Shown piece after piece: positions 6,201-48,789 of a stretch of DNA of 64,000 nt (positions within the stretch are counted from its first letter, which is position 1; every line of letters begins with the position of its first letter). The position numbers were made by a program, and so were the translations under genes. Source of the DNA: an uncultured Lachnospiraceae bacterium (GTDB lineage: Bacteria > Bacillota > Clostridia > Lachnospirales > Lachnospiraceae); assembly GCA_947178145.1 (NCBI GenBank), contig CAMWXE010000021.1:1-64000 (forward strand), given 5' to 3'. The notes below the pieces were generated by a model, which had not been told where the DNA came from, ran no database searches, and was given only the letters and a program-made list of their open reading frames with translations.

Positions 6201-9057
6201 CTCTGCAAAATATTTTAAGGATAGTAAGAATTCTGCCGACTTTGTGTATTTTAATAGGATATATAAAAAGAATGATCCGCCATATAGCACTACTAATCCA
6301 CCATATGAAGAGGATACACAACCGAGGTATGTTAATACTTTTGGGAAAGCCGGAAATGAAAGCGTCAATAGCCTATATTCAAGCTATCAGTATACACCTA
6401 ATGATGCACCAGATGATTATGTAGAGACGGTACCTGGATTATTCAGCGGATTCTTTGATGAATCGGATCTTGACAAACCAGATACTAATAATGGTAATCT
6501 GATGTGGAATGCATATGATGGCCATTCTTACACGGAGAACAATGAGAGAGGAAATGACTATCTGACAAGTGTTCAGATGCCAACTGTTGAGGAGTTTCCA
6601 GACTATGCGTTTGATAGTGCTGAGAACTTAAAGTCTCTCACCATAGGCAGTGCGTTGGATAAAGTTGGCATACAGCCGTTTAGGGATTGCAAGAGCCTGT
6701 TTGAGATTAATACAGGAGACAGTACAAAGTATGCTTATGACGGCAATATGCTGTTCTATGAAAATGAAGGCGATAGTACCCAGCCAAGTTACAAGATTAT
6801 ACAGTGTCTGGAAGGACGTGGCAGGAGAGATGCTGCAGATGGAAATTATGGTTCAACAGAGATTAGTTCCAAAACCAATCCATGGCTTTCACAGGTATCA
6901 AGTATCGCCGATTATGCATTTGCAAATTGTGAGGAAATCTACACAGTGGATTTGTCTGATACATCGGTAAGAACGATTTCGGAAGGAGCATTTAATGGAT
7001 GTAGTAAGCTGGAATCGGTGACATTGCCCGCAACGGTGAATATGGTTCAAAGGGATGCATTTGTTGGTGTAACAGATAGAAATTTCAGGCTTGAAGTACC
7101 TAATCCGAATTGTTATATCAATCCCGAAGCATTTGATCTTGGACCAGGCAGAACAGAGACTTTGTATATAAGTGGTATTCAGTATGTAGATGAAAAGACA
7201 GAAGAAACAAGTACCTGCTATAATGCCTATCTGGAGCTGCTGAAAAAATATCCAGGTCAGGTCGAATTTAATGAGATAGGAACTACCTATACGGTTCGAT
7301 TTTATGACGAGGATCGCAACCAGCTTGGATCTAACTATGAGATTGCAAGGGGAGAGGATGTTTTGAATCCTCCTATAGAGGCAGCAAGAGCAGCAGCAAA
7401 GACTGGACGCAGATTCGATACCTGGTTATGCCTGCTTGACAATGGTGAGATATTGAGAGGTGAAGAGGCCTATAAGAATGTAACTGAGAACAGAAGAGTA
7501 GAGGCGATCTATGTAGATGATCCGAGTTCCGTAGTTCCAGACGGAAACAATTATACCTTGACTGTTCAAAATGGAACTGCATTAGTCAATAATAATCCAG
7601 TAACAATTCCAGCGACAGTTCACGGTGGTGATACGATAACGATAATAGCAACGGACTCCGCAAACTTTAGAGTATGGACAGTTACACCAAATAACTATAC
7701 ATCTTTATTATTGGGTGCAAACAATCCTGTGACTACATTCACCATGCCAAATGCGAACATAACAGTCACAGCAAATTCGGCAATTGATGGCAGCGGTGCG
7801 AACCCCGACGGAACCTACACGGTAACCGTCAACAACGGTACAGGCGGCGGAAACTATCGTCCGGGCGCGACAGTCACCATCACAGCAAACACACCCAATA
7901 CCGGAGCGTCCTTTGTGAACTGGACAACAACAACCTCAGGAGTGACATTTGCAAATGCAACATCCGCCTCCACGACATTCGTGATGCCATCTTCCAATGT
8001 ATCTGTAACAGCAAACTTCAGTGATGGTACAGGCGGACAGCCCGGTGGCAATACCCCTGGTGGTGACAACACAACAAAGTACAAAGTAACCGTAAACTAC
8101 GGTTCCGGAAGCGGCGAGTATGCGGCAGGTGAGACTGTCAATATCACAGCGAATGCACCAGAGTCATCAAACAGAGTATTCTCCAGATGGACGACCAGCA
8201 ATTCCGGTCTTGGATTTGCCAATGCAAACGCTGTATCGACCTCGTTTGTGATGCCGGCGACAGATGTTACAGTCACGGCGAATTACAAGACAAGAACAAG
8301 TGATGACGATGACGACGATGATGACGACAGCAGTTCATCAAGAAGACCGGGCACAAATACAAGCACCAATACAGTGACCAACACTCCCGGAAGCTCGACA
8401 AATACAACAGGGACAACAGGTACAGTCAACAATCCATCGAACGAATCAGGCAGCACGGCAGGAACAAACAATACGAATGGCAATCGAATATATATCACGA
8501 AGAACGGTATTTCCAACACGGATGTGGCATCTTTGGCAGTAAGCGGTTCTACAGACAATTTTATTGTCAGAATCACAGAGTCAGCGGAGGCGACAGCGGC
8601 AGTAGAACAGGCACTTACGAACACCTATGGTTCGCTGAGTGGATTGGCATACCTGCCAATGGATATCTCACTTTATGACTCGACAGGTCAAAATAAGATT
8701 ACAGATACCACAGGATTGAATATCACAGTGACAATGCCAATACCGGATGTACTGATTCAGTATGGCGGAAATGCGCGTGTTGCAGCGGCAGATAACGGAA
8801 ATCTTGTACAGCTTACGCCGCGGTTCACGACAATTGATGGCATTGCATGTATTTCTTTCGTACCGCCCCATTTTTCACCGTATGTGATCTATGTGGATAC
8901 GAACAATTTGATAGCGGGTCAGATGCTTGACTCCACACCGGCGACAGGCGACCCAATTCACCCGAAGTGGTTTGCGGCAATCGGCATGGCATGTGTATCG
9001 ATTCTGCTGTTTGTCACAAGTGACGGACGGAAACGCAAAAAATTCAGGGCAGCATAA
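3289..9057 (+). CDS. Large BspA-type leucine-rich-repeat surface protein with C-terminal repeat domains and a membrane anchor
   Basis: ATG 3289 after ggggaga (ORF track begins at 3160); signal peptide MAKSRKKKNNKLRRRVMRTVAALTMIMAIVVAAIP; LRR_5-like units; three VTV..GxG-type InlB/Bacterial-repeat-like modules; C-terminal TPATGD + TM + RKRKK. Confidence 0.85.
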   Translation: MAKSRKKKNNKLRRRVMRTVAALTMIMAIVVAAIPVENLDIVRADYANTLTINYASDVAGANNNSDLYTANSYENSYGGDQLRIQRIEGSMITELFTVQKSGTNADTAMITGSLLASGTNSLDIRNEEYYQYIQFDNTFVSPFRAAVGSLAYTYTYQATPQTFNGGTDSTGNNVSGSITINILSTASPTGNSNNAGTGSITATTDDGGYTSYNLSNLTADTVYTSSYTSNIRTAQENLIRTYNTMAQQDIATLQAIQNKVSSSGNGSGKLTDTDRNNWANLQAKYASGQGASDYSAARTLNVSFSNLGGTGTASLTNFEKDLICKCFYNSSNNSLTLDRYELIEISKGQSSVYVPRLTGSNAALTGQSVDTNKYLVSGRARIDGIKSNAFVGAGINTLNIASNIRFIGAEAFAGSPLRTVTIDMTNCEIIGDRAFKGCTNLTNVSFTGTYTGTASKLQEIGKEAFADTALSAITIPNSVGTIGAGGFANNAQLSRVEFASGGTNTAMTMQPYAFFNATNLSSVVFPSGTNNRQFQIMKFGFALDTGTNGGSLSDFTFPAANNSVNYGSEADYDYILANRSRLQTVTWPGLLQNKIPDNTLWGCEELSYTRFPDGAARADYTADALFQGVQNTDFYVEGPANINAQTVATPRKTTWTAKAGYDNGNGIIPYKFTDSTGTHFEIGVKENPADTEPKYIATIDVTNEAAKEATLSKYTAYTTPNANDRFSIVIPDKVGEYTVVAIGPNCFDDDIKNKIYELIIKDGSVRQIAAEAFKGSENLQWVEIGDAVASIGREAFADCPKLENVVFSQTQTAGFYGQDAYWKDQHVLGTDAFKTGSTYLTFHGAIHPDYAPFALAMSADSKNMTSTRSECQICYKTDAPLNLTVIRDADGKATLIDYPHYEEVDYINEGLIDEYKTETNDPDFSIKDRFELVNEIGNNTNDDNKAVPTWARDIVLQTLNMNLPKGIENIDSAKYFKDSKNSADFVYFNRIYKKNDPPYSTTNPPYEEDTQPRYVNTFGKAGNESVNSLYSSYQYTPNDAPDDYVETVPGLFSGFFDESDLDKPDTNNGNLMWNAYDGHSYTENNERGNDYLTSVQMPTVEEFPDYAFDSAENLKSLTIGSALDKVGIQPFRDCKSLFEINTGDSTKYAYDGNMLFYENEGDSTQPSYKIIQCLEGRGRRDAADGNYGSTEISSKTNPWLSQVSSIADYAFANCEEIYTVDLSDTSVRTISEGAFNGCSKLESVTLPATVNMVQRDAFVGVTDRNFRLEVPNPNCYINPEAFDLGPGRTETLYISGIQYVDEKTEETSTCYNAYLELLKKYPGQVEFNEIGTTYTVRFYDEDRNQLGSNYEIARGEDVLNPPIEAARAAAKTGRRFDTWLCLLDNGEILRGEEAYKNVTENRRVEAIYVDDPSSVVPDGNNYTLTVQNGTALVNNNPVTIPATVHGGDTITIIATDSANFRVWTVTPNNYTSLLLGANNPVTTFTMPNANITVTANSAIDGSGANPDGTYTVTVNNGTGGGNYRPGATVTITANTPNTGASFVNWTTTTSGVTFANATSASTTFVMPSSNVSVTANFSDGTGGQPGGNTPGGDNTTKYKVTVNYGSGSGEYAAGETVNITANAPESSNRVFSRWTTSNSGLGFANANAVSTSFVMPATDVTVTANYKTRTSDDDDDDDDDSSSSRRPGTNTSTNTVTNTPGSSTNTTGTTGTVNNPSNESGSTAGTNNTNGNRIYITKNGISNTDVASLAVSGSTDNFIVRITESAEATAAVEQALTNTYGSLSGLAYLPMDISLYDSTGQNKITDTTGLNITVTMPIPDVLIQYGGNARVAAADNGNLVQLTPRFTTIDGIACISFVPPHFSPYVIYVDTNNLIAGQMLDSTPATGDPIHPKWFAAIGMACVSILLFVTSDGRKRKKFRAA

Positions 9058-11058: not shown

Positions 11059-12450
11059 ATGGAAAAACTTTTTTGGGGAATGGTAGGTGGGTGCACTGCT
11101 GCATTTGCCATTCTGCTGGGGATGTATCTGAATAAGACAGGTGTGATTGGCGCGGAGCCAGAGACCTCGACAGAGATTGTCTCGGAGATCGAGACAACTA
11201 CAGAGACAGAAGAGGAATTGCTGGCAGAAGACGGCGAGTTCCCTTCTGACATACAATCCATGATCGAGGATTCACAGAGAAATTACTCACAGGCGATGCA
11301 AGTGTTTGAAGACGAGTCATTGGCTGTGGCTTCGAGAGAGGCGGAGGAGGCAAGGCAAACGACATCAGGCGCGACAACATCGACAGGTACATCGGGCAGT
11401 GGCACGAAGACAAATGGATCGGTCGATGGAAACAGGAACGATAACCACGACTATTTCCTCGAAAGTCCCTCAGAGGAGGAATCAGAGATAGAGGAGTCAA
11501 GTAGTACAGAGTCGGAAAAACCGGAGGAAAAGAAGAACAGCGAGTATGAGTATACACTGTACACAGATCATGTAGTCCTCAAAAAATATGTTGGAAGTGC
11601 AGCATCACTCGATATCCCGGAGACGATAGATGGTCAGCCGGTAACAGAGATATCGGATTCCGCGTTTGCTAGTTCCAAGACGCTTGTGCGCATATCGCTT
11701 CCAAATACAGTTACGAAGCTCGGGAAAAATGTATTTAAGAGCAGTGAGCTTCTGGTCGATATCACTTTGTCAGACAGTCTGACAGAGATAGGAGAGGGTG
11801 TATTTGACAGTTGCTCGAGACTTACGCGGATTACGATACCAGATGGTGTGACCAATATTGGCAAAAAGGCCTTTAATGAATGTACAGACCTTCGAACTGT
11901 CAAACTGACAGATAATATTGAGACAATCGGGGAACAGGCATTTTACAATTGTGGCAAGATGGAGATGACAAAGCTTCCCTCCTCATTGAAGAGCGTGGAG
12001 AAGGAAGCGTTTGCAGACTGTGCAGCGATGGCGCTGACGAAGTGGCCGGGCGAACTGGAGTTTATCGGTGAGAGTGCCTTTGAGGGCTGTACGGCAATTA
12101 CAAGTGTAAAGCTTCCTAGTACCATGCAGAGACTGACAACCAATGCTTTTCAGGGCTGTTCTGGCATTGAGACACTTGAGATCAAATCGGGGATTGAGGC
12201 GATACCAGAGTCGGCGTTTGCAGACTGTACAGGGATTACAGACGTGTCATTTCCAAAATCTGTGATCAGTATTGGCGACAGCGCTTTTTCTGGATGTACA
12301 GCGCTGGAGAATGTATCGATACCAAAGAATACGCTCAGTGTTGGTTCCTCTGCATTTGCGGGCAGTGCGATTACATCTGTAACGATTAATGCGAGGTGTT
12401 CTTATCAGAAAGACTCGTTTCCTGGAAGTACGGAGATTGAGAATTATTGA
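11059..12450 (+). CDS. BspA-type leucine-rich-repeat secreted protein
   Basis: N-terminal hydrophobic segment, Ser/Glu-rich linker, multiple IxxxAFxxCxxLxxVxLPxxV repeats. Confidence 0.85.
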   Translation: MEKLFWGMVGGCTAAFAILLGMYLNKTGVIGAEPETSTEIVSEIETTTETEEELLAEDGEFPSDIQSMIEDSQRNYSQAMQVFEDESLAVASREAEEARQTTSGATTSTGTSGSGTKTNGSVDGNRNDNHDYFLESPSEEESEIEESSSTESEKPEEKKNSEYEYTLYTDHVVLKKYVGSAASLDIPETIDGQPVTEISDSAFASSKTLVRISLPNTVTKLGKNVFKSSELLVDITLSDSLTEIGEGVFDSCSRLTRITIPDGVTNIGKKAFNECTDLRTVKLTDNIETIGEQAFYNCGKMEMTKLPSSLKSVEKEAFADCAAMALTKWPGELEFIGESAFEGCTAITSVKLPSTMQRLTTNAFQGCSGIETLEIKSGIEAIPESAFADCTGITDVSFPKSVISIGDSAFSGCTALENVSIPKNTLSVGSSAFAGSAITSVTINARCSYQKDSFPGSTEIENY

Positions 12451-38125: not shown

Positions 38126-38875
38126 ATGGGATTGTCTGTGACGCTTACGGTGTTTGAAGGACCGTTGGATTTGCTGCTCTATCTAATCGAAAAAAATAAG
38201 ATTGACATCTATGATATACCAATCGTGGTCATAACAGAACAATATCTTGACTATATCCGAAATATGCAGACAGAGGACATGAATATTATGAGCGAATTTC
38301 TTGTGATGGCGGCGACGCTTCTTGACATCAAGTGCAGAATGCTCCTGCCCAAAGAAATCAATGAGGAGGGCGAGGAGGAGGATCCGAGAGCGGAGCTTGT
38401 ACAGAAACTGCTTGAGTACAAGATGTACAAGTATATGGCTTTCGAGCTGCGGGACAAGCAGGTGGATGCGGCGAAAACCTGGTACAAAAAGCCCATGCTG
38501 CCCAAGGAAGTTGCAGATTATCAGTATCCTATAGACTATGAGGCGCTTGCGGGGGATGTTACGCTGACGAAGCTTCATGAGATTTTCAAATCGATCATGC
38601 GGCGTCAGGAGGACAAGATCGATCCGATTAGAAGCCAGTTTGGCAAGATTGAGAAGGATGAGATCAACCTGGAGGAGAAACAAAGTTACATAGAATCATA
38701 CGTGAAGAATCACAGAAGATTTTGTTTTCGGAGTCTTTTGGAGAAGCAAGGGAGCAAGATGGAAGTGATCGTCACTTTTATGGCGGTGCTGGAAATGATG
38801 AAGCAGGGGATTATCTCGATTGAGCAGGAGGATACTTTTGCGGATATCATTATTACGTCAAGCCTTGCAGCGTAA
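38126..38875 (+). CDS. scpA: Segregation and condensation protein A
   Basis: VFEGPLDLLLYLIEKNKIDIYDIPI; followed by scpB. Confidence 0.95.
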   Translation: MGLSVTLTVFEGPLDLLLYLIEKNKIDIYDIPIVVITEQYLDYIRNMQTEDMNIMSEFLVMAATLLDIKCRMLLPKEINEEGEEEDPRAELVQKLLEYKMYKYMAFELRDKQVDAAKTWYKKPMLPKEVADYQYPIDYEALAGDVTLTKLHEIFKSIMRRQEDKIDPIRSQFGKIEKDEINLEEKQSYIESYVKNHRRFCFRSLLEKQGSKMEVIVTFMAVLEMMKQGIISIEQEDTFADIIITSSLAA

Positions 38876-38901
38876 TACAATGTGTTGAGGATGTATTTAT
38901 A

Positions 38902-39483
38902 ATGGAAGAAAAGAAGATAATGGCAGTGATTGAGGCTGTGCTCTTTGCGATGGGGGATTCCGTTGAGCTTTCCAAGTTAAATCATGTGCTGGAGATACCA
39001 GAGGACAGAATACGCGAAGTGATTGCCAAAATGAATGATAAATACAAGAAGGCAGACAGAGGAATCTACATTGCGGAGCTTGAGGATGCAGTGCAGTTGT
39101 GTACGAAACCGGAGCTGTATGAGTATCTGATCAAGGTGGCGAAGGCGCCGCGGAAATATGTCTTGACAGATACATTGCTGGAGACGCTTTCAATTATCGC
39201 ATACAAGCAGCCAGTGACGAGGCTTGAGGTTGAGAAGATACGGGGAGTAAGCTGTGATCATGCGGTGAACAAATTGCTTGAATATCATCTGATTCAGGAG
39301 CTTGGCCGGCTTGATGCGCCAGGGCGTCCATTGCTGTTTGGCACGACGGAGGAATTTCTGAGGACTTTCGGAGTGAAGTCATTGGGGGATCTTCCGATGC
39401 TGAATCCAGATCAGATGGAGGATTTTAGAAGGGAGGCCGAGGAGGAAATCGAACAAAAAGCGGAATTAACGGTAGAGATATAG
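38902..39483 (+). CDS. scpB: Segregation and condensation protein B
   Basis: LETLSIIAYKQPVTRLEVEKIRGVSCDHAVNKLLEYHLIQELGRLDAPGRPLLFGTTEEFLRTFG. Confidence 0.95.
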   Translation: MEEKKIMAVIEAVLFAMGDSVELSKLNHVLEIPEDRIREVIAKMNDKYKKADRGIYIAELEDAVQLCTKPELYEYLIKVAKAPRKYVLTDTLLETLSIIAYKQPVTRLEVEKIRGVSCDHAVNKLLEYHLIQELGRLDAPGRPLLFGTTEEFLRTFGVKSLGDLPMLNPDQMEDFRREAEEEIEQKAELTVEI

Positions 39484-39499
39484 ATGGGGGAATGTTATA

Positions 39500-40447
39500 G
39501 TGTACGGGGAAGATGAAACACAAAACAGGGAGATGCTCATTGACGATAATGTTGGAAGGAAGATTCTTGATACTGCGATTGATATCATCAATCGGGAAGG
39601 ATATGAGAGTCTCACAATCCGCAGAGTGGCAAAGGAAAGCGGTTGCTCCAACTCGGCGATTTATCAGCGGTTTGGGGATAAGAATGCTCTGGCGGAAGCG
39701 ATTGCGGCATTGCAGGCGAAACCGTTTCTTGTCATAATGGAGGAAAATTACTCAAAAGATGTGGATTTGTTTACGAACATGAACCGAATTACCAAAAAAC
39801 TGTTGGAAAAAATTTATTCTTTTGAGTTGGAGGCGATCTACATGCAGATGATCTACCAGGGACGGCTGGAAATGGATTCTAATCCATTGATTCTGCGGAT
39901 AGAGGGTTATCTCAAAAATGCGGTGGCGCATGGGGAAACAAATATTGTAAATACAAGAGAAACTGCCTTTTTGTTGTCATCGGCTTTTTTGGGATTTGTG
40001 CAGATGATACGTGCAAACAAGAATAATGACTTAAAAAAGGCAAAAAAACTTTTGGAGGTACAAAATTGTATCATATACAGAGGAATCATCAGTTCGCGGA
40101 GGGATGGCGATTCTCTGTGGGACATGCTCAGAGGCAGGGGAGTTGATGTAGACAAGGCGCTTGCGCGTATGAAGGGAAATAAAGACACCTATAAAAATTT
40201 TCTGATTGAGTTCTTTGGGGATCCTGATTTTGAGGCTCTGGAGACTGCGATTAAGACAGGAAATGCCCAGAATGCCTTTGAGTACGCACATGGGTTAAAA
40301 GGTATGGCGGCGAACCTTGGACTTGATGAGGTGCGCAGTAAGCTCGGTGTGCTCGTGGAAATCCTGCGTCCTGGAAAACTTGACGGTGCATCGACAGCAT
40401 ACGACGATGTGATGAACGCGTGTGAGTTGGTCACGGTATTGCTATAG
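39500..40447 (+). CDS. TetR-type HTH protein with C-terminal Hpt (histidine phosphotransfer) domain
   Basis: N-term AIDIINREGYESLTIRRVAKESGCSNSAIYQRFGDKNALAEAI; C-term GVDVDKALARMKGNKDTYKNFLIEFFGD...FEYAHGLKGMAANLGLDEVRSKLGVLVEILRPGK. Confidence 0.85.
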   Translation: MYGEDETQNREMLIDDNVGRKILDTAIDIINREGYESLTIRRVAKESGCSNSAIYQRFGDKNALAEAIAALQAKPFLVIMEENYSKDVDLFTNMNRITKKLLEKIYSFELEAIYMQMIYQGRLEMDSNPLILRIEGYLKNAVAHGETNIVNTRETAFLLSSAFLGFVQMIRANKNNDLKKAKKLLEVQNCIIYRGIISSRRDGDSLWDMLRGRGVDVDKALARMKGNKDTYKNFLIEFFGDPDFEALETAIKTGNAQNAFEYAHGLKGMAANLGLDEVRSKLGVLVEILRPGKLDGASTAYDDVMNACELVTVLL

Positions 40448-40517
40448 TTTTTCTTCCACGGACAGTGGAGAGGCGTTTTGGCGTTTCTGTGTAAAAAGGG
40501 AATGGGGTTATCAAAAG

Positions 40518-40928
40518 GTGGAGACGAAAAACAAAATACTTGTAGTAGATGACAAGGGAATCAACCGGTATATGTTAGGGAATATATTCCGGGAGGAATA
40601 CGAGATTGTCGAGGCATCAGGCGGGCAGATGGCGATTGACATTATGGAAGTGGATGCCAGAAATTTTGCGGTTGTGATGCTGGATATTATCATGCCTATG
40701 ATCAATGGTTTTGGCGTGCTCGAATACATGAAGGATAAGAAATTGCTGGACAAATTACCAGTGGTGATCGTTACGGATGATGACTCGGAGGAGACAAGCG
40801 ACAGGGCGTTTGAATACAAGGTGGCAGATCTTGTGATCAAACCGTTCGAGCCCAAAATCATCAAGCGGCGTGTGCAGAATATTATTGAGTTATATGCGTA
40901 TCGGGAGAAATATGGGAATAACACTTGA
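40518..40928 (+). CDS. Stand-alone response-regulator receiver (CheY-like)
   Basis: ILVVDDKGINRYML, VVMLDIIMP, IVTDDDSEET, VIKPFEP; GTG start inferred. Confidence 0.88.
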   Translation: METKNKILVVDDKGINRYMLGNIFREEYEIVEASGGQMAIDIMEVDARNFAVVMLDIIMPMINGFGVLEYMKDKKLLDKLPVVIVTDDDSEETSDRAFEYKVADLVIKPFEPKIIKRRVQNIIELYAYREKYGNNT

Positions 40929-40939
40929 CAAAGAAAATC

Positions 40940-40968
40940 AAAAAATGCTGTGCGTACAGCATTTTTTT
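40940..40968 (+). terminator. Rho-independent terminator
   Basis: AAAAATGCTGT gcgt ACAGCATTTTTTT. Confidence 0.85.
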
Positions 40969-42647: not shown

Positions 42648-44081
42648 ATGAGTACTACTTCAAGTTTGGCAAGTAAAAGAATTGAATCTTTACTTGATGA
42701 AAACAGTTTCGTTGAAATTGGTGCCCTTGTCACAGCAAGAGCGACAGATTTCAATCTGAAACAGACTGAGACTCCCTCAGACGGTGTTGTCACCGGATAT
42801 GGAGTGATCAATGGCAATCTGGTGTATGTGTACAGCCAGGATGCATCCGTACTGAACGGTTCCGTCGGTGAGATGCATGCCAAAAAAATCACAAACCTCT
42901 ACGACCTTGCGATGAAGACAGGCGCACCTGTCATCGGTCTGATTGACTCCGCAGGTCTCAGGCTTCAGGAGGCGACAGATGCACTCAATGCTTTTGGTGA
43001 GATTTACTTAAAGCAGACACTTGCATCAGGGGTCATTCCACAGATTACAGCCGTATTTGGAAGCTGTGGAGGCGGTCTTGCGCTGATTCCGACACTGACA
43101 GACTTTACTTTCATGGAGAAATCAAAAGCAAAGCTCTTTGTAAATGCCCCTAATGCACTTGACGGGAACAATGTATCAAAGTGTGATTCTGCTTCGGCAG
43201 ATTTCCAGAGCAGCGAGAGCGGTATCGTGGATGTCGTTGCCGATGAGGACACAATCTATGCAAAGATTCGGGATCTGGTGTCAATTCTTCCTGCTAACAA
43301 TGAGGATGATGCCTCTTACGAGGAGTGTACGGACGACCTGAACAGGGTTTGTGCAGACCTTGCCAACTGTGTGGGTGATACATCTATCGCGCTCTCTGCA
43401 ATTGCGGACAACAATGTGTTCTTTGAGGTAAAGGAAAATTATGCAAAGGATATGGTGACAGGCTTTATCCGGTTAAACGGCACGACAGTCGGATGTGTTG
43501 CAAACCGCACAGAGGTATACAGCCCAGAGGGTGAAGTCACTGACAAGTATGATGCTGTGTTATCGGCAAAAGGATGCGAGAAGGCGGCGGACTTTATCAA
43601 TTTCTGTGATGCTTTTGATATCCCTGTGCTGTCCCTTACGAATGTCAAGGGCTATGAGGCGACAATGTGCAGTGAGAAACGGATCGCAAAGGCAGTGGCG
43701 AAGCTTACATATGCTTTCGCAAATGCCACAGTGCCCAAGGTAAATGTAGTTATTGGAAAGGCACTTGGAAGCGCATATGTTGCAATGAATTCCAAATCAA
43801 TTGGTGCAGATCTTACGATTGCATGGCCCGATGCAGAGATCGGTTCTATGGATGCAAAGCTTGCAGCCAAGATTATGTATGAAGGCCAGGGGGCAGATGT
43901 CATCGAGGAGAAGGCAGCAGAGTATGCAGCGCTTCAGACGAGCGCTACAGGGGCGGCCAGAAGGGGATATGTAGACCAGATTATCGATGCGGCTGATACT
44001 AGAAAATATGTGATCGGCGCCTTTGAAATGCTATATACAAAGAGAGAGGATCGTCCGTCAAAGAAGCATGGTACGGTCTAA
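42648..44081 (+). CDS. Acyl-CoA carboxylase/decarboxylase carboxyltransferase subunit-like protein
   Basis: SVGEMHAKKITNLYDLAMKTGAPVIGLIDSAGLRLQEATDAL; IGKALGSAYVAMNSKSIGADLTIAWPDAEIGSMDAK. Confidence 0.82.
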   Translation: MSTTSSLASKRIESLLDENSFVEIGALVTARATDFNLKQTETPSDGVVTGYGVINGNLVYVYSQDASVLNGSVGEMHAKKITNLYDLAMKTGAPVIGLIDSAGLRLQEATDALNAFGEIYLKQTLASGVIPQITAVFGSCGGGLALIPTLTDFTFMEKSKAKLFVNAPNALDGNNVSKCDSASADFQSSESGIVDVVADEDTIYAKIRDLVSILPANNEDDASYEECTDDLNRVCADLANCVGDTSIALSAIADNNVFFEVKENYAKDMVTGFIRLNGTTVGCVANRTEVYSPEGEVTDKYDAVLSAKGCEKAADFINFCDAFDIPVLSLTNVKGYEATMCSEKRIAKAVAKLTYAFANATVPKVNVVIGKALGSAYVAMNSKSIGADLTIAWPDAEIGSMDAKLAAKIMYEGQGADVIEEKAAEYAALQTSATGAARRGYVDQIIDAADTRKYVIGAFEMLYTKREDRPSKKHGTV

Positions 44082-44099
44082 GAAAGGGTGAACGTTAAT

Positions 44100-44918
44100 A
44101 TGAAAAAATTTGTGAGATTATTATTAATGCTTACCTGCGTTTTCGTTTTAACAGCGTGCGGTTCGGACGAGACTCCAAACCGTATTCAGGAGATGAAAGA
44201 AACTCTGGCGAGGAGCAAGGCGGAACAGGTTGTCAGGCTCACAGAAGTATTTGTTTCATCAGACAATGTGGATGAGATGCTTGAGAGTTATAATAATGTG
44301 GAATTGGGTGATATATTCGCATCCAACTTTGCACAGTATTATAACGATAGTTCTTTCCTGTGTGAAGGCAAGGCAGTGAACAGTGCGCTTACATCCTTCA
44401 AGACAGGTATCGAGAGCATGGGAAGTATCACAGAGTATGGCACTCCGACATCCGTTATTGATGGGGATACGATCATTGTTACGATTCCGGCTACAGGTGA
44501 GAATGGAAACGGTTCGGTAGAATTAATTTTTACGAATGATATCTATCTGCAGATGACATCCTGCACACTGAATCTTGATCAGACGAAAGGACAGCTGATG
44601 ACAAGAGCTGCTCTCAACACATTGCTTGGTATGGGAACTGTGTTTGTGGTGCTGATTCTGATCAGCCTTATCATTTCAGCGTTTAATTTGATTCCGAAGA
44701 TTCAGGCTTCTCTTGCGCCGAAGAAAGCGGAGATTGAACCTGTGGAAGCGCCAGAGCCGGCAGCGCCTGTTGTGGAGGAAGAAGAAGACCTCTCGGATGA
44801 TATGGAACTTGTGGCAGTCATAGCGGCAGCAATTGCATCATATGAGGGAACGAGCGTGGAAGGATTCCAGGTAAGAAGCATTAAGAGAGCAGGCAGAAAA
44901 AATTGGAAAAATGCATAA
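44100..44918 (+). CDS. Lipoprotein fused to an OadG-like Na+-pump decarboxylase gamma domain
   Basis: MKKFVRLLLMLTCVFVLTACGSDE lipobox; C-terminal TM VFVVLILISLIISAFNLIPKIQ + acidic/Pro linker + ELVAVIAAAIASYEGTSVEGFQVRSIKRA. Confidence 0.75.
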   Translation: MKKFVRLLLMLTCVFVLTACGSDETPNRIQEMKETLARSKAEQVVRLTEVFVSSDNVDEMLESYNNVELGDIFASNFAQYYNDSSFLCEGKAVNSALTSFKTGIESMGSITEYGTPTSVIDGDTIIVTIPATGENGNGSVELIFTNDIYLQMTSCTLNLDQTKGQLMTRAALNTLLGMGTVFVVLILISLIISAFNLIPKIQASLAPKKAEIEPVEAPEPAAPVVEEEEDLSDDMELVAVIAAAIASYEGTSVEGFQVRSIKRAGRKNWKNA

Positions 44919-44965
44919 AATGAACTAAATCGAACCATGTATAGAATATTTAGGAGGATTTCAAA

Positions 44966-45343
44966 ATGAAAAATTATACAATTACCGTCAACGGCAACGT
45001 ATATGATGTCGTAGTAGAAGAAGGCGCAGGTTCTGGCGCAGCTCCGGCTGCTGCAGCAGCTCCCAAGGCGGCACCGAAGGCAGCTCCCAAGGCAGCAGCG
45101 GCACCGAAGGCAAGCGCAGGTGCAGCAGGCAGCATCAGGATTGAGGCTGGCGCGGCAGGTAAGGTGTTCAAGCTTGAGAAGAGTGTTGGACAGGCTGTAA
45201 AGAAGGGTGACGCAGTCGTGATTCTCGAGGCTATGAAGATGGAAATTCCTGTAGTAGCACCTCAGGATGGTACAGTGGCAAGCGTTGACGTGGCAGTTGG
45301 CGATTCTGTAGAAGCAGGTGCGTTACTTGCTACTTTAAATTAA
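44966..45343 (+). CDS. Biotin carboxyl carrier protein
   Basis: Ala/Pro linker and VVILEAMKMEIPVVAP biotinylation motif. Confidence 0.95.
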   Translation: MKNYTITVNGNVYDVVVEEGAGSGAAPAAAAAPKAAPKAAPKAAAAPKASAGAAGSIRIEAGAAGKVFKLEKSVGQAVKKGDAVVILEAMKMEIPVVAPQDGTVASVDVAVGDSVEAGALLATLN

Positions 45344-45345
45344 AC

Positions 45346-45425
45346 AACTGTCTGAGACAGTTTGCTGCCGCAAGGCAGTCCTTTACCACCGCGATGTCGG
45401 TGGAACAGGGTGATGATATGCCCTG
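45346..45425 (+). other. Array of four consecutive hairpins in the intergenic region
   Basis: AACTGTC tga GACAGTT; CTGCC gcaa GGCAG; CCACCG cgatgt CGGTGG; CAGGG ... CCCTG. Confidence 0.7.
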
Positions 45426-45449
45426 AAAATAAAATAGGAGGTCAACAAA

Positions 45450-46598
45450 ATGTCATATATAGCAGATACATTGAACAATCTGATACATCAAACTGCATTT
45501 TTAAATATCGATTACAAAAATGTTATCATGATTGTTATTGCTTGCGGATTTCTATATCTTGCTATCGCGAAGCAGTACGAACCGCTTCTGTTAACACCGA
45601 TAGCATTTGGTATGCTGCTGGTTAATATTTATCCCGACATTATCGCGCCGATTGGCGCGGATGGCACACCCGGCGGTTTACTTTATTATTTCTATTTACT
45701 GGATGAGTGGGCAATCCTTCCATCTCTGATATTCCTTGGCGTGGGCGCGATGACGGACTTTGGACCGCTGATTGCGAACCCCAAGAGTTTTCTGCTTGGT
45801 GCGGCTGCCCAGTTTGGTATTTTTGCCGCTTACTTTGGTGCGATTTGGCTTGGATTTAACGATAAGGCAGCGGCGGCAGTATCCATCATTGGTGGTGCTG
45901 ACGGCCCTACATCCATTTTCCTCGCAGGCAAGTTGGGGCAGACAGCCCTTCTTGGACCGATTGCAGTGGCAGCGTATTCCTACATGTCACTGGTGCCTAT
46001 TATTCAGCCGCCAATTATGAAGCTGCTGACAACAGAGGAGGAAAGAAAGATCAAGATGGCGCAGCTGCGTCCGGTTTCCAAACTTGAGAAGATTCTTTTC
46101 CCAATCATTGTTACAATCGTTGTATGTCTGATTCTTCCTACCACTGCACCACTTGTTGGTATGCTGATGCTGGGTAATCTGTTCAGGGAGTCAGGCGTGG
46201 TAAGACAGCTCCAGGAGACAGCGTCTAATGCGTTGATGTACATTGTTGTTATCTTACTTGGTACTTCCGTAGGTGCTACGACAAGTGCAGAGGCATTTTT
46301 GAACTGGGATACAATTAAGATCGTTGTATTAGGTCTGGTAGCGTTTATGTTTGGTACAGCAGCGGGGGTTCTCTTTGGCAAGCTGATGTGCAAGCTGACA
46401 AACGGCAAGGTAAATCCGCTGATCGGATCGGCAGGTGTTTCCGCTGTTCCTATGGCTGCGCGTGTCTCGCAGAAAGTCGGCGCAGAGGCAGATCCGACAA
46501 ACTTCCTGCTCATGCATGCGATGGGACCGAATGTTGCCGGTGTTATCGGTACAGCAGTGGCGGCCGGAACCTTCATGGCGATTTTCGGTGTATTTTAA
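45450..46598 (+). CDS. Na+-transporting decarboxylase beta subunit (OadB/MmdB/GcdB type)
   Basis: Polytopic membrane protein; SIIGGADGPTSIFLAGKLG; GAEADPTNFLLMHAMGPNVAGVIGTAVAAG. Confidence 0.93.
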   Translation: MSYIADTLNNLIHQTAFLNIDYKNVIMIVIACGFLYLAIAKQYEPLLLTPIAFGMLLVNIYPDIIAPIGADGTPGGLLYYFYLLDEWAILPSLIFLGVGAMTDFGPLIANPKSFLLGAAAQFGIFAAYFGAIWLGFNDKAAAAVSIIGGADGPTSIFLAGKLGQTALLGPIAVAAYSYMSLVPIIQPPIMKLLTTEEERKIKMAQLRPVSKLEKILFPIIVTIVVCLILPTTAPLVGMLMLGNLFRESGVVRQLQETASNALMYIVVILLGTSVGATTSAEAFLNWDTIKIVVLGLVAFMFGTAAGVLFGKLMCKLTNGKVNPLIGSAGVSAVPMAARVSQKVGAEADPTNFLLMHAMGPNVAGVIGTAVAAGTFMAIFGVF

Positions 46599-48231: not shown

Positions 48232-48789
48232 ATGGATGATGAAATGGCAAGGAAAGAATTGATTACAAAAGATAAAATCGCAGAGACAGCTTTTGCGCTG
48301 GCAAGGGCAGAAGGCATAGAAAATGTTACGGCCAGGAAACTGGCAGCACAGATCGGATGTTCGACACAGCCAATATTCAGAGTTTATGAAAATATGGGTG
48401 AACTCTATTTGGAGATATATCAGAAAGCGATCGACGCTTTCGGAGATTACTATGGAAATTACAAGTCGGAGGTGCATACTCCATTCATACACCTTGGACT
48501 TGCTTACATAAATTATGCAAAGGAAGAGAGAAAACTGTTTCAGCTCCTTTTTCAGTCGGAGTACCGCGGGAACAGAGGACTCTTTGAACTCTTAAACGGC
48601 AAATCAGGAGTGGTAAGCAGGGAAATTAACAAAGCTGCTGAAGCAGGCTGTAAAAATCCAAGCGAATTGTTTATGAAAATGTGGATTTTCATACATGGAT
48701 GCGCCTGTATGGTTCTCACCGGGGATTATGATCTCACAGAGAAAGAAACGATTGAATTACTGCAGGATATTTATACGAACTGTTCCTGA
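48232..48789 (+). CDS. TetR/AcrR family transcriptional regulator
   Basis: KIAETAFALARAEGIENVTARKLAAQIGCSTQPIFRVYENMGELY. Confidence 0.9.
   Translation: MDDEMARKELITKDKIAETAFALARAEGIENVTARKLAAQIGCSTQPIFRVYENMGELYLEIYQKAIDAFGDYYGNYKSEVHTPFIHLGLAYINYAKEERKLFQLLFQSEYRGNRGLFELLNGKSGVVSREINKAAEAGCKNPSELFMKMWIFIHGCACMVLTGDYDLTEKETIELLQDIYTNCS

Follow-up and report, generated by a model that had tools for sequence, protein, structure and literature searches.

Our results support a model in which a TetR-type DNA-binding protein fused to an Hpt domain acts as a phospho-gated repressor of an sRNA sponge encoded beside serA, with a stand-alone receiver as its partner. We regard this as the best explanation of the data and rate it slightly above an even chance. 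The fusion and receiver genes lie in a stretch of 64,000 nucleotides, analysed as a whole and called the window here, from an uncultured Lachnospiraceae bacterium; its genus consists of uncultured gut-type bacteria. Judging from the conserved residues, DNA binding by TetR-Hpt would probably be gated by phosphate exchanged between His264 of the Hpt domain and Asp56 of the receiver, and a hybrid kinase of the cell may in turn supply the receiver; we infer the phosphotransfer together with its direction and sign. The TetR dimer would bind paired palindromic operators just past the −10 box of the serA-side RNA gene and block its transcription, and in four species it would also repress its own promoter. 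The RNA, in turn, would soak up a C-rich sRNA through a repeated element complementary to the sRNA seed, such that derepression of the sponge would remove the sRNA and free its targets, including the receiver in the window's clade. The most far-reaching form of the model, in which the end point of a phosphorelay is a TetR-fold repressor that responds to phosphorylation of the Hpt domain it carries, the sponge is the main regulon and the sRNA feeds back onto receiver translation, is offered more tentatively, at somewhat less than even odds. All of the evidence comes from comparative sequence analysis of draft or metagenome assemblies, many of them fragmented; the window's assembly has an estimated contamination of 6.8%, but independent genomes show the same arrangement.

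The sequence-only reading of the window had proposed that one uninterrupted frame encodes both a TetR-like helix-turn-helix and an Hpt-like module with a phospho-His motif, and profile and structure analyses bear this out. The frame contains no stop codon (Table 1), and both domains exceed their curated Pfam cut-offs: TetR_N at residues 22–68 (47 bits versus a cut-off of 24) and Hpt at residues 243–297 (30 bits versus 24.6). Both were also detected in 13 of 13 aligned orthologues, from which an AlphaFold2 model of the full protein was built (mean pLDDT 85.6, pTM 0.56). In this model an all-helical TetR fold extends to residue 197 and is followed by an Hpt bundle at residues 205–312, with His264 located within a helix; modelled separately, the Hpt half reached a pLDDT of 96 and a pTM of 0.87. 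Foldseek matched the whole model to TetR-family chains, the best structural match being QacR (TM 0.80), and the C-terminal half to Hpt proteins, including the Hpt domain of BarA and Pseudomonas aeruginosa HptB (TM 0.79, rmsd 2.0). The C-terminus thus combines an Hpt profile, an Hpt fold and the AHxLKG motif. Mean pairwise identity is highest in the helix-turn-helix (78%), whose recognition region GCSNSAIY is almost invariant among the fusion orthologues, followed by the Hpt domain (69%), the TetR core (47%), which is the fastest-evolving of the domains, and the linker (26%). His264, Lys267 and Gly268, with the surrounding AHGLKG, are invariant across species at 48–90% identity, and His264 and AHGLKG are likewise invariant in every stand-alone Hpt relative aligned.

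Table 1. Positions of the features discussed; coordinates refer to the window unless a contig or locus is named.
Feature	Position	Strand	Basis or remark
scpA-scpB	38126..39483	+	Pfam; conserved upstream neighbours by synteny, positional context only
TetR-Hpt fusion gene	39500..40447	+	315 aa, GTG start, scpB 16 bp upstream
TetR_N helix-turn-helix, residues 17–68	39548..39703	+	Pfam 47 bits; invariant columns
TetR C-terminal (dimer/ligand) core, residues 84–197	39749..40090	+	structure model
Hpt domain, residues 205–312	40112..40435	+	Pfam 30 bits; AlphaFold2; Foldseek to HptB and BarA Hpt
Phospho-acceptor His264 codon (AHGLKG)	40289..40291	+	invariant in alignment
Element TGTGTAAAAAGGGAATGGGG, overlapping the receiver Shine-Dalgarno	40488..40507	+	complementary to the C-rich sRNA seed
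Stand-alone receiver, 136 aa, GTG start	40518..40928	+	Response_reg 66.4 bits (Pfam)
Receiver phospho-acceptor Asp56 codon (LDIIMP)	40683..40685	+	invariant
Hairpin flanked by A/T runs, 3' of the receiver gene	40940..40967	.	program listing: − strand
serA-side RNA, window's own genome	contig C19 ~12068-12308 (L177:991-1231), outside the window	minus	promoter/operator/terminator anatomy
Candidate TetR-Hpt sites at the serA-side promoter, AAGAACNNNGTTCTT + AACNNNGTT			predicted
C-rich sRNA, window's genome	contig C9 ~59.68-59.79 kb (L147:7685-7790)	minus	conserved stretch
C-rich sRNA, other loci	L148, L149, L150, L152, L229-L232		
Second stand-alone receiver region	L147 ~6395-6770 = G000:C9:58394-58771		

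The neighbouring gene encodes a receiver and nothing else, as had been read from the letters: its active site is complete (acidic pair, Asp56, Thr and Lys108), no output domain is present, and D12, D56 and K108 are invariant in all aligned sequences. Because the phospho-acceptor residues of both the Hpt domain and the receiver are invariant, the phosphorelay chemistry of the pair appears to be intact. The hairpin that follows the receiver gene was assigned to the minus strand by the program, and direct reading of the sequence shows a T run after its stem on the plus strand; it probably ends an scp-tetRhpt-rec transcription unit.

Conservation across the genus indicates that the fusion is a real gene with a constant partner. 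An orthologue is present in 14 of 38 genus genomes (49–90% identity), placed directly 3' of scpA-scpB and followed by the receiver wherever the contig permits reading. The presence of the fusion in these 14 genomes, with an invariant AHGLKG and a constant receiver, excludes a frameshift artefact joining two genes. Receiver orthologues occur in exactly the same 14 genomes; elsewhere the best match does not exceed 48%. Five further genomes carry a stand-alone Hpt protein of 58–64% identity at the same post-scpB place without the TetR portion and without the receiver. In a tree of ScpA and ScpB, each of the two branches of the deepest split contains fusion genomes, which makes it probable that the common ancestor of the genus already had the locus. 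The same tree implies loss of the whole locus in some lineages, for example in G251, the sister of G269 (bootstrap 98), and its reduction to Hpt in a single five-species clade (87). The species tree thus favours loss of TetR and receiver in the Hpt-only clade, and the Hpt tree itself does not resolve whether the Hpt-only state is derived or ancestral. Beyond the genus, no match spanning both domains turned up in approximately 1,200 sampled genomes (including 249 from the family, 392 from the order and 398 from the phylum, with the best candidates per genome scored) or in 72,556 plasmids, and literature searches returned no description of a TetR-Hpt fusion.

Comparison of promoter regions provided candidate operators. 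In four species scpB and the fusion gene are separated by 124–198 bp. This gap holds a promoter (TTGACA-17-ATAAT) and, downstream of it, two near-palindromic sites approximately 22 bp apart, GAACRWTGTTAC and a AACAACGTTGTT-like sequence; the promoter and the two sites are its best conserved blocks. A 12-mer from this region, GTAACAWYGTTC, occurs once each in G260, G265 and G270, only at the fusion's promoter gap. When the two-site pattern was searched genome-wide, it reappeared in one shared intergenic region beside serA in G265 and G269, with the same type of promoter upstream, which led us to an RNA gene. Reversed-pattern controls gave scattered matches, a non-trivial background, so the evidence lies in recurrence at one homologous place and not in the raw count. 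The second site forms a perfect palindrome, AAGAAC-N3-GTTCTT, in both copies of G261 and in G252 and G264, with invariant arms and differing centres, and it is still recognisable in most other fusion genomes. The first predicted operator at the serA-side promoter of the window's genome is AACATCGTT and the second is an imperfect palindrome, GAAAACAAGGTTTTT; no operator was found 5' of the fusion gene there, nor any above chance within the window. An MFS transporter considered as a further target was rejected, since the site 5' of this transporter gene in G261 is part of a sponge gene copy transcribed divergently from it.

The unit downstream of serA has the anatomy of an independent RNA gene. 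A sigma-A promoter (TTGACA-17-AATAAT), paired predicted operators directly downstream of its −10 box and an intrinsic terminator delimit an RNA of approximately 240 nt, with approximately 170–260 nt lacking a conserved ORF between operators and terminator. The RNA folds better than shuffled sequences (z = −3.08) and has no relevant match in Rfam. It is present in 16 of 16 informative genomes with an Hpt locus, 11 with the fusion and five Hpt-only. Nine of the 11 have it beside serA, G261 carries two relocated copies and in G258 it lies one gene further on; the fusion genomes G260, G274 and G276 give no information. It is also present in G262, whose assembly lacks the scpB region. In 14 genomes that lack the locus, some with short flanks, a search beside serA yielded no such RNA. 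The association between RNA and locus gives a Fisher value of 2e-7 on a conservative table, not corrected for phylogeny. In the Hpt-only genomes the promoter and RNA are kept, and the conserved palindromes decay where TetR has been lost: the second site is missing in all five, and four also have a damaged first site. These species amount to a natural experiment, linking the operators with TetR and the RNA with the lineage that contains Hpt. The serA-side RNA gene is the probable main target of the TetR-Hpt repressor.

Clues to the function of this RNA come from its G-rich sequence, which repeats the element TGTGTAAAA(N0-2)GGGA. In 1.35 Mb of DNA we count 24 distinct occurrences of this pattern, compared with 0 or 1 for scrambled controls; they lie in the serA-side RNA and its copies, the receiver 5' region in five genomes and one conserved non-coding stretch. 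The other strand of that stretch encodes a C-rich sRNA of approximately 92 nt, with two 5' hairpins, a single-stranded seed (GAAUUCCCCUUUUACACA) and a terminator. Across nine species its seed is identical and its hairpins are almost letter-identical; it has no relevant Rfam match and is absent at the homologous site in G282, G283 and G255, the last two of which are Hpt-only. A conserved CAATATAGTTATAGA box lies upstream of the sRNA promoter. Each serA-side RNA contains 2–5 sites complementary to the seed, beyond the 0.3–0.75 found in shuffles, and more repeated sites are apparent in G261 and G258. The receiver 5' region also pairs strongly with the seed, with a predicted duplex of −19.4 kcal/mol, the strongest of 57 window genes; the fusion gene takes fourth place. 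This strong pairing is conserved only in the window's clade, with values of −9.6 to −17.5 kcal/mol in other species. Since the seed covers the receiver Shine-Dalgarno in that clade, more receiver would be made upon derepression of the sponge, which would complete a feedback loop.

Several other explanations must be weighed against the phospho-gated repressor. The fusion could be a bifunctional scaffold in which a ligand-controlled TetR represses the RNA gene and the Hpt domain separately exchanges phosphate with the receiver, fusion coupling only their dosage and location, with no phospho-gating. Several features fit such a protein: its TetR core is complete and diverges rapidly relative to the Hpt domain, as ligand-binding cores do; five species have kept the Hpt but no TetR; and the low-identity linker and overall pTM of the model allow independent domains. 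However, TetR and the receiver are always retained or lost jointly, a pattern that points to an action of the receiver on TetR output, and we consider the scaffold unlikely, though a serious competitor. Conserved residues bear on a second possibility, that the Hpt domain is a relic of an incidental fusion and the protein an ordinary TetR autoregulator. Although the predicted operators in four species are of an autoregulatory type and Hpt domains are widespread and recombine readily, a relic would hardly keep its His, Lys, Gly and neighbouring residues invariant among such divergent orthologues, or survive where TetR was lost; we think this very improbable.

The RNA might instead be a decoy for CsrA, similar to CsrB or RsmY, which was our initial reading of it. 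csrA is present in 35 of 38 genus genomes, and some elements contain AAAAGGA, like the upstream hairpin of the flagellin leader beside csrA; the CsrA consensus is RUACARGGAUGU (PMC7652899). Motif counts and the seed match weakened this idea: ANGGA is inconsistent, enriched in some RNAs but present once against approximately two expected in G267 and G272, the whole element fits the sRNA seed far beyond GGA, and genomes lacking the RNA have csrA just as often. We now regard a CsrA decoy as improbable. The sequence-only reading had also taken the location near scpAB and a DD-carboxypeptidase as a hint of cell-cycle or envelope control. The position after scpAB is indeed constant, but downstream genes differ among species (udk, dacF, or a YesM kinase/ABC operon), the window yielded no operator and the footprinted, target-like sites lie elsewhere in the genome, making such control scarcely credible. 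That part of the earlier proposal falls away; its other part, phosphate-controlled DNA binding through the neighbouring receiver, survives as the preferred reading, based on the invariant phospho-acceptors and the shared presence of TetR and receiver. In genus members without the locus, udk, dacF or another gene follows scpB.

The proposed system resembles several known ones without matching any of them. Like TetR repressors such as QacR and FadR, the fusion has a helix-turn-helix, a nine-helix fold and, by prediction, palindromic operators over the transcription start; it differs in its C-terminal Hpt domain, its co-inherited receiver and its probable RNA-gene target. It shares the four-helix fold and AHxLKG motif of HptB and the BarA Hpt, which are stand-alone or part of a kinase, whereas here the Hpt domain is joined to a DNA-binding protein. 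In a classical phosphorelay the endpoint is a response regulator phosphorylated on Asp. If our model is correct, a DNA-binding protein would itself carry phospho-His as the switch, a different wiring of two-component signals to DNA and a new class of phosphorelay output. Similar to BarA-UvrY and Gac-Rsm, a phosphorelay would govern a regulatory RNA that titrates, but the output would be a TetR-Hpt repressor rather than a LuxR-type response regulator, and the titrated partner is most likely an sRNA rather than CsrA. The closest RNA parallels are RosA and RsaI of Firmicutes, sponge RNAs whose G-rich regions bind C-rich sRNAs, with RosA repressed by CcpA; sponge RNAs in Gram-positives were first confirmed in B. 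subtilis (PMC8216469). The serA-side RNA likewise appears to be a stand-alone transcript under a repressor, with G-rich regions complementary to a C-rich sRNA. In contrast to RosA and RsaI, it has several repeated sites, no Rfam match, a different C-rich sRNA and a Lachnospiraceae host, and its regulator would be TetR-Hpt rather than CcpA. As it appears to titrate the C-rich sRNA, it would extend sponge RNAs to Lachnospiraceae, under apparent phosphorelay control. Literature searches gave no description of a TetR-Hpt protein and receiver wired to a repeat-rich, putatively sRNA-binding RNA.

No kinase gene lies near the locus in the window, as first noted. Among the signalling proteins of the window's genome are hybrid kinases of the 7TM and PocR types that end in REC-Hpt, as well as CheA proteins and another Hpt beside a REC-HD protein. 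We rejected a YesM-type kinase as the partner: it lies 3' of the receiver in several relatives, but is grouped with its own transporter genes, has an AraC/YesN-type regulator alongside where the region is readable, and also follows Hpt or udk without a receiver. YesM-type sensor kinase and ABC transporter genes adjoin the locus in some species only (L068-L071, L074, L082, L083, L089).

Other features were observed in passing. In several members of the genus, a second stand-alone receiver, 40% identical to the fusion's receiver, is encoded 3' of a sigH-like sigma factor gene. The flagellin leader by fliW-csrA (L217:2230-2340, contig C8 of the window's own genome) carries classical CsrA-type sites in the form of AAGGA loops on two conserved hairpins, and one subclade (G280, G281, G279, G282) has an unusual number of CsrA homologues, 5–8 per genome. 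By eye, the window also contains a methylmalonyl-CoA-decarboxylase-like (mmd) gene cluster 3' of a second DD-carboxypeptidase (42648-46598) and another, ordinary TetR-like gene adjoining an RpiR-like regulator gene (48232-48789).
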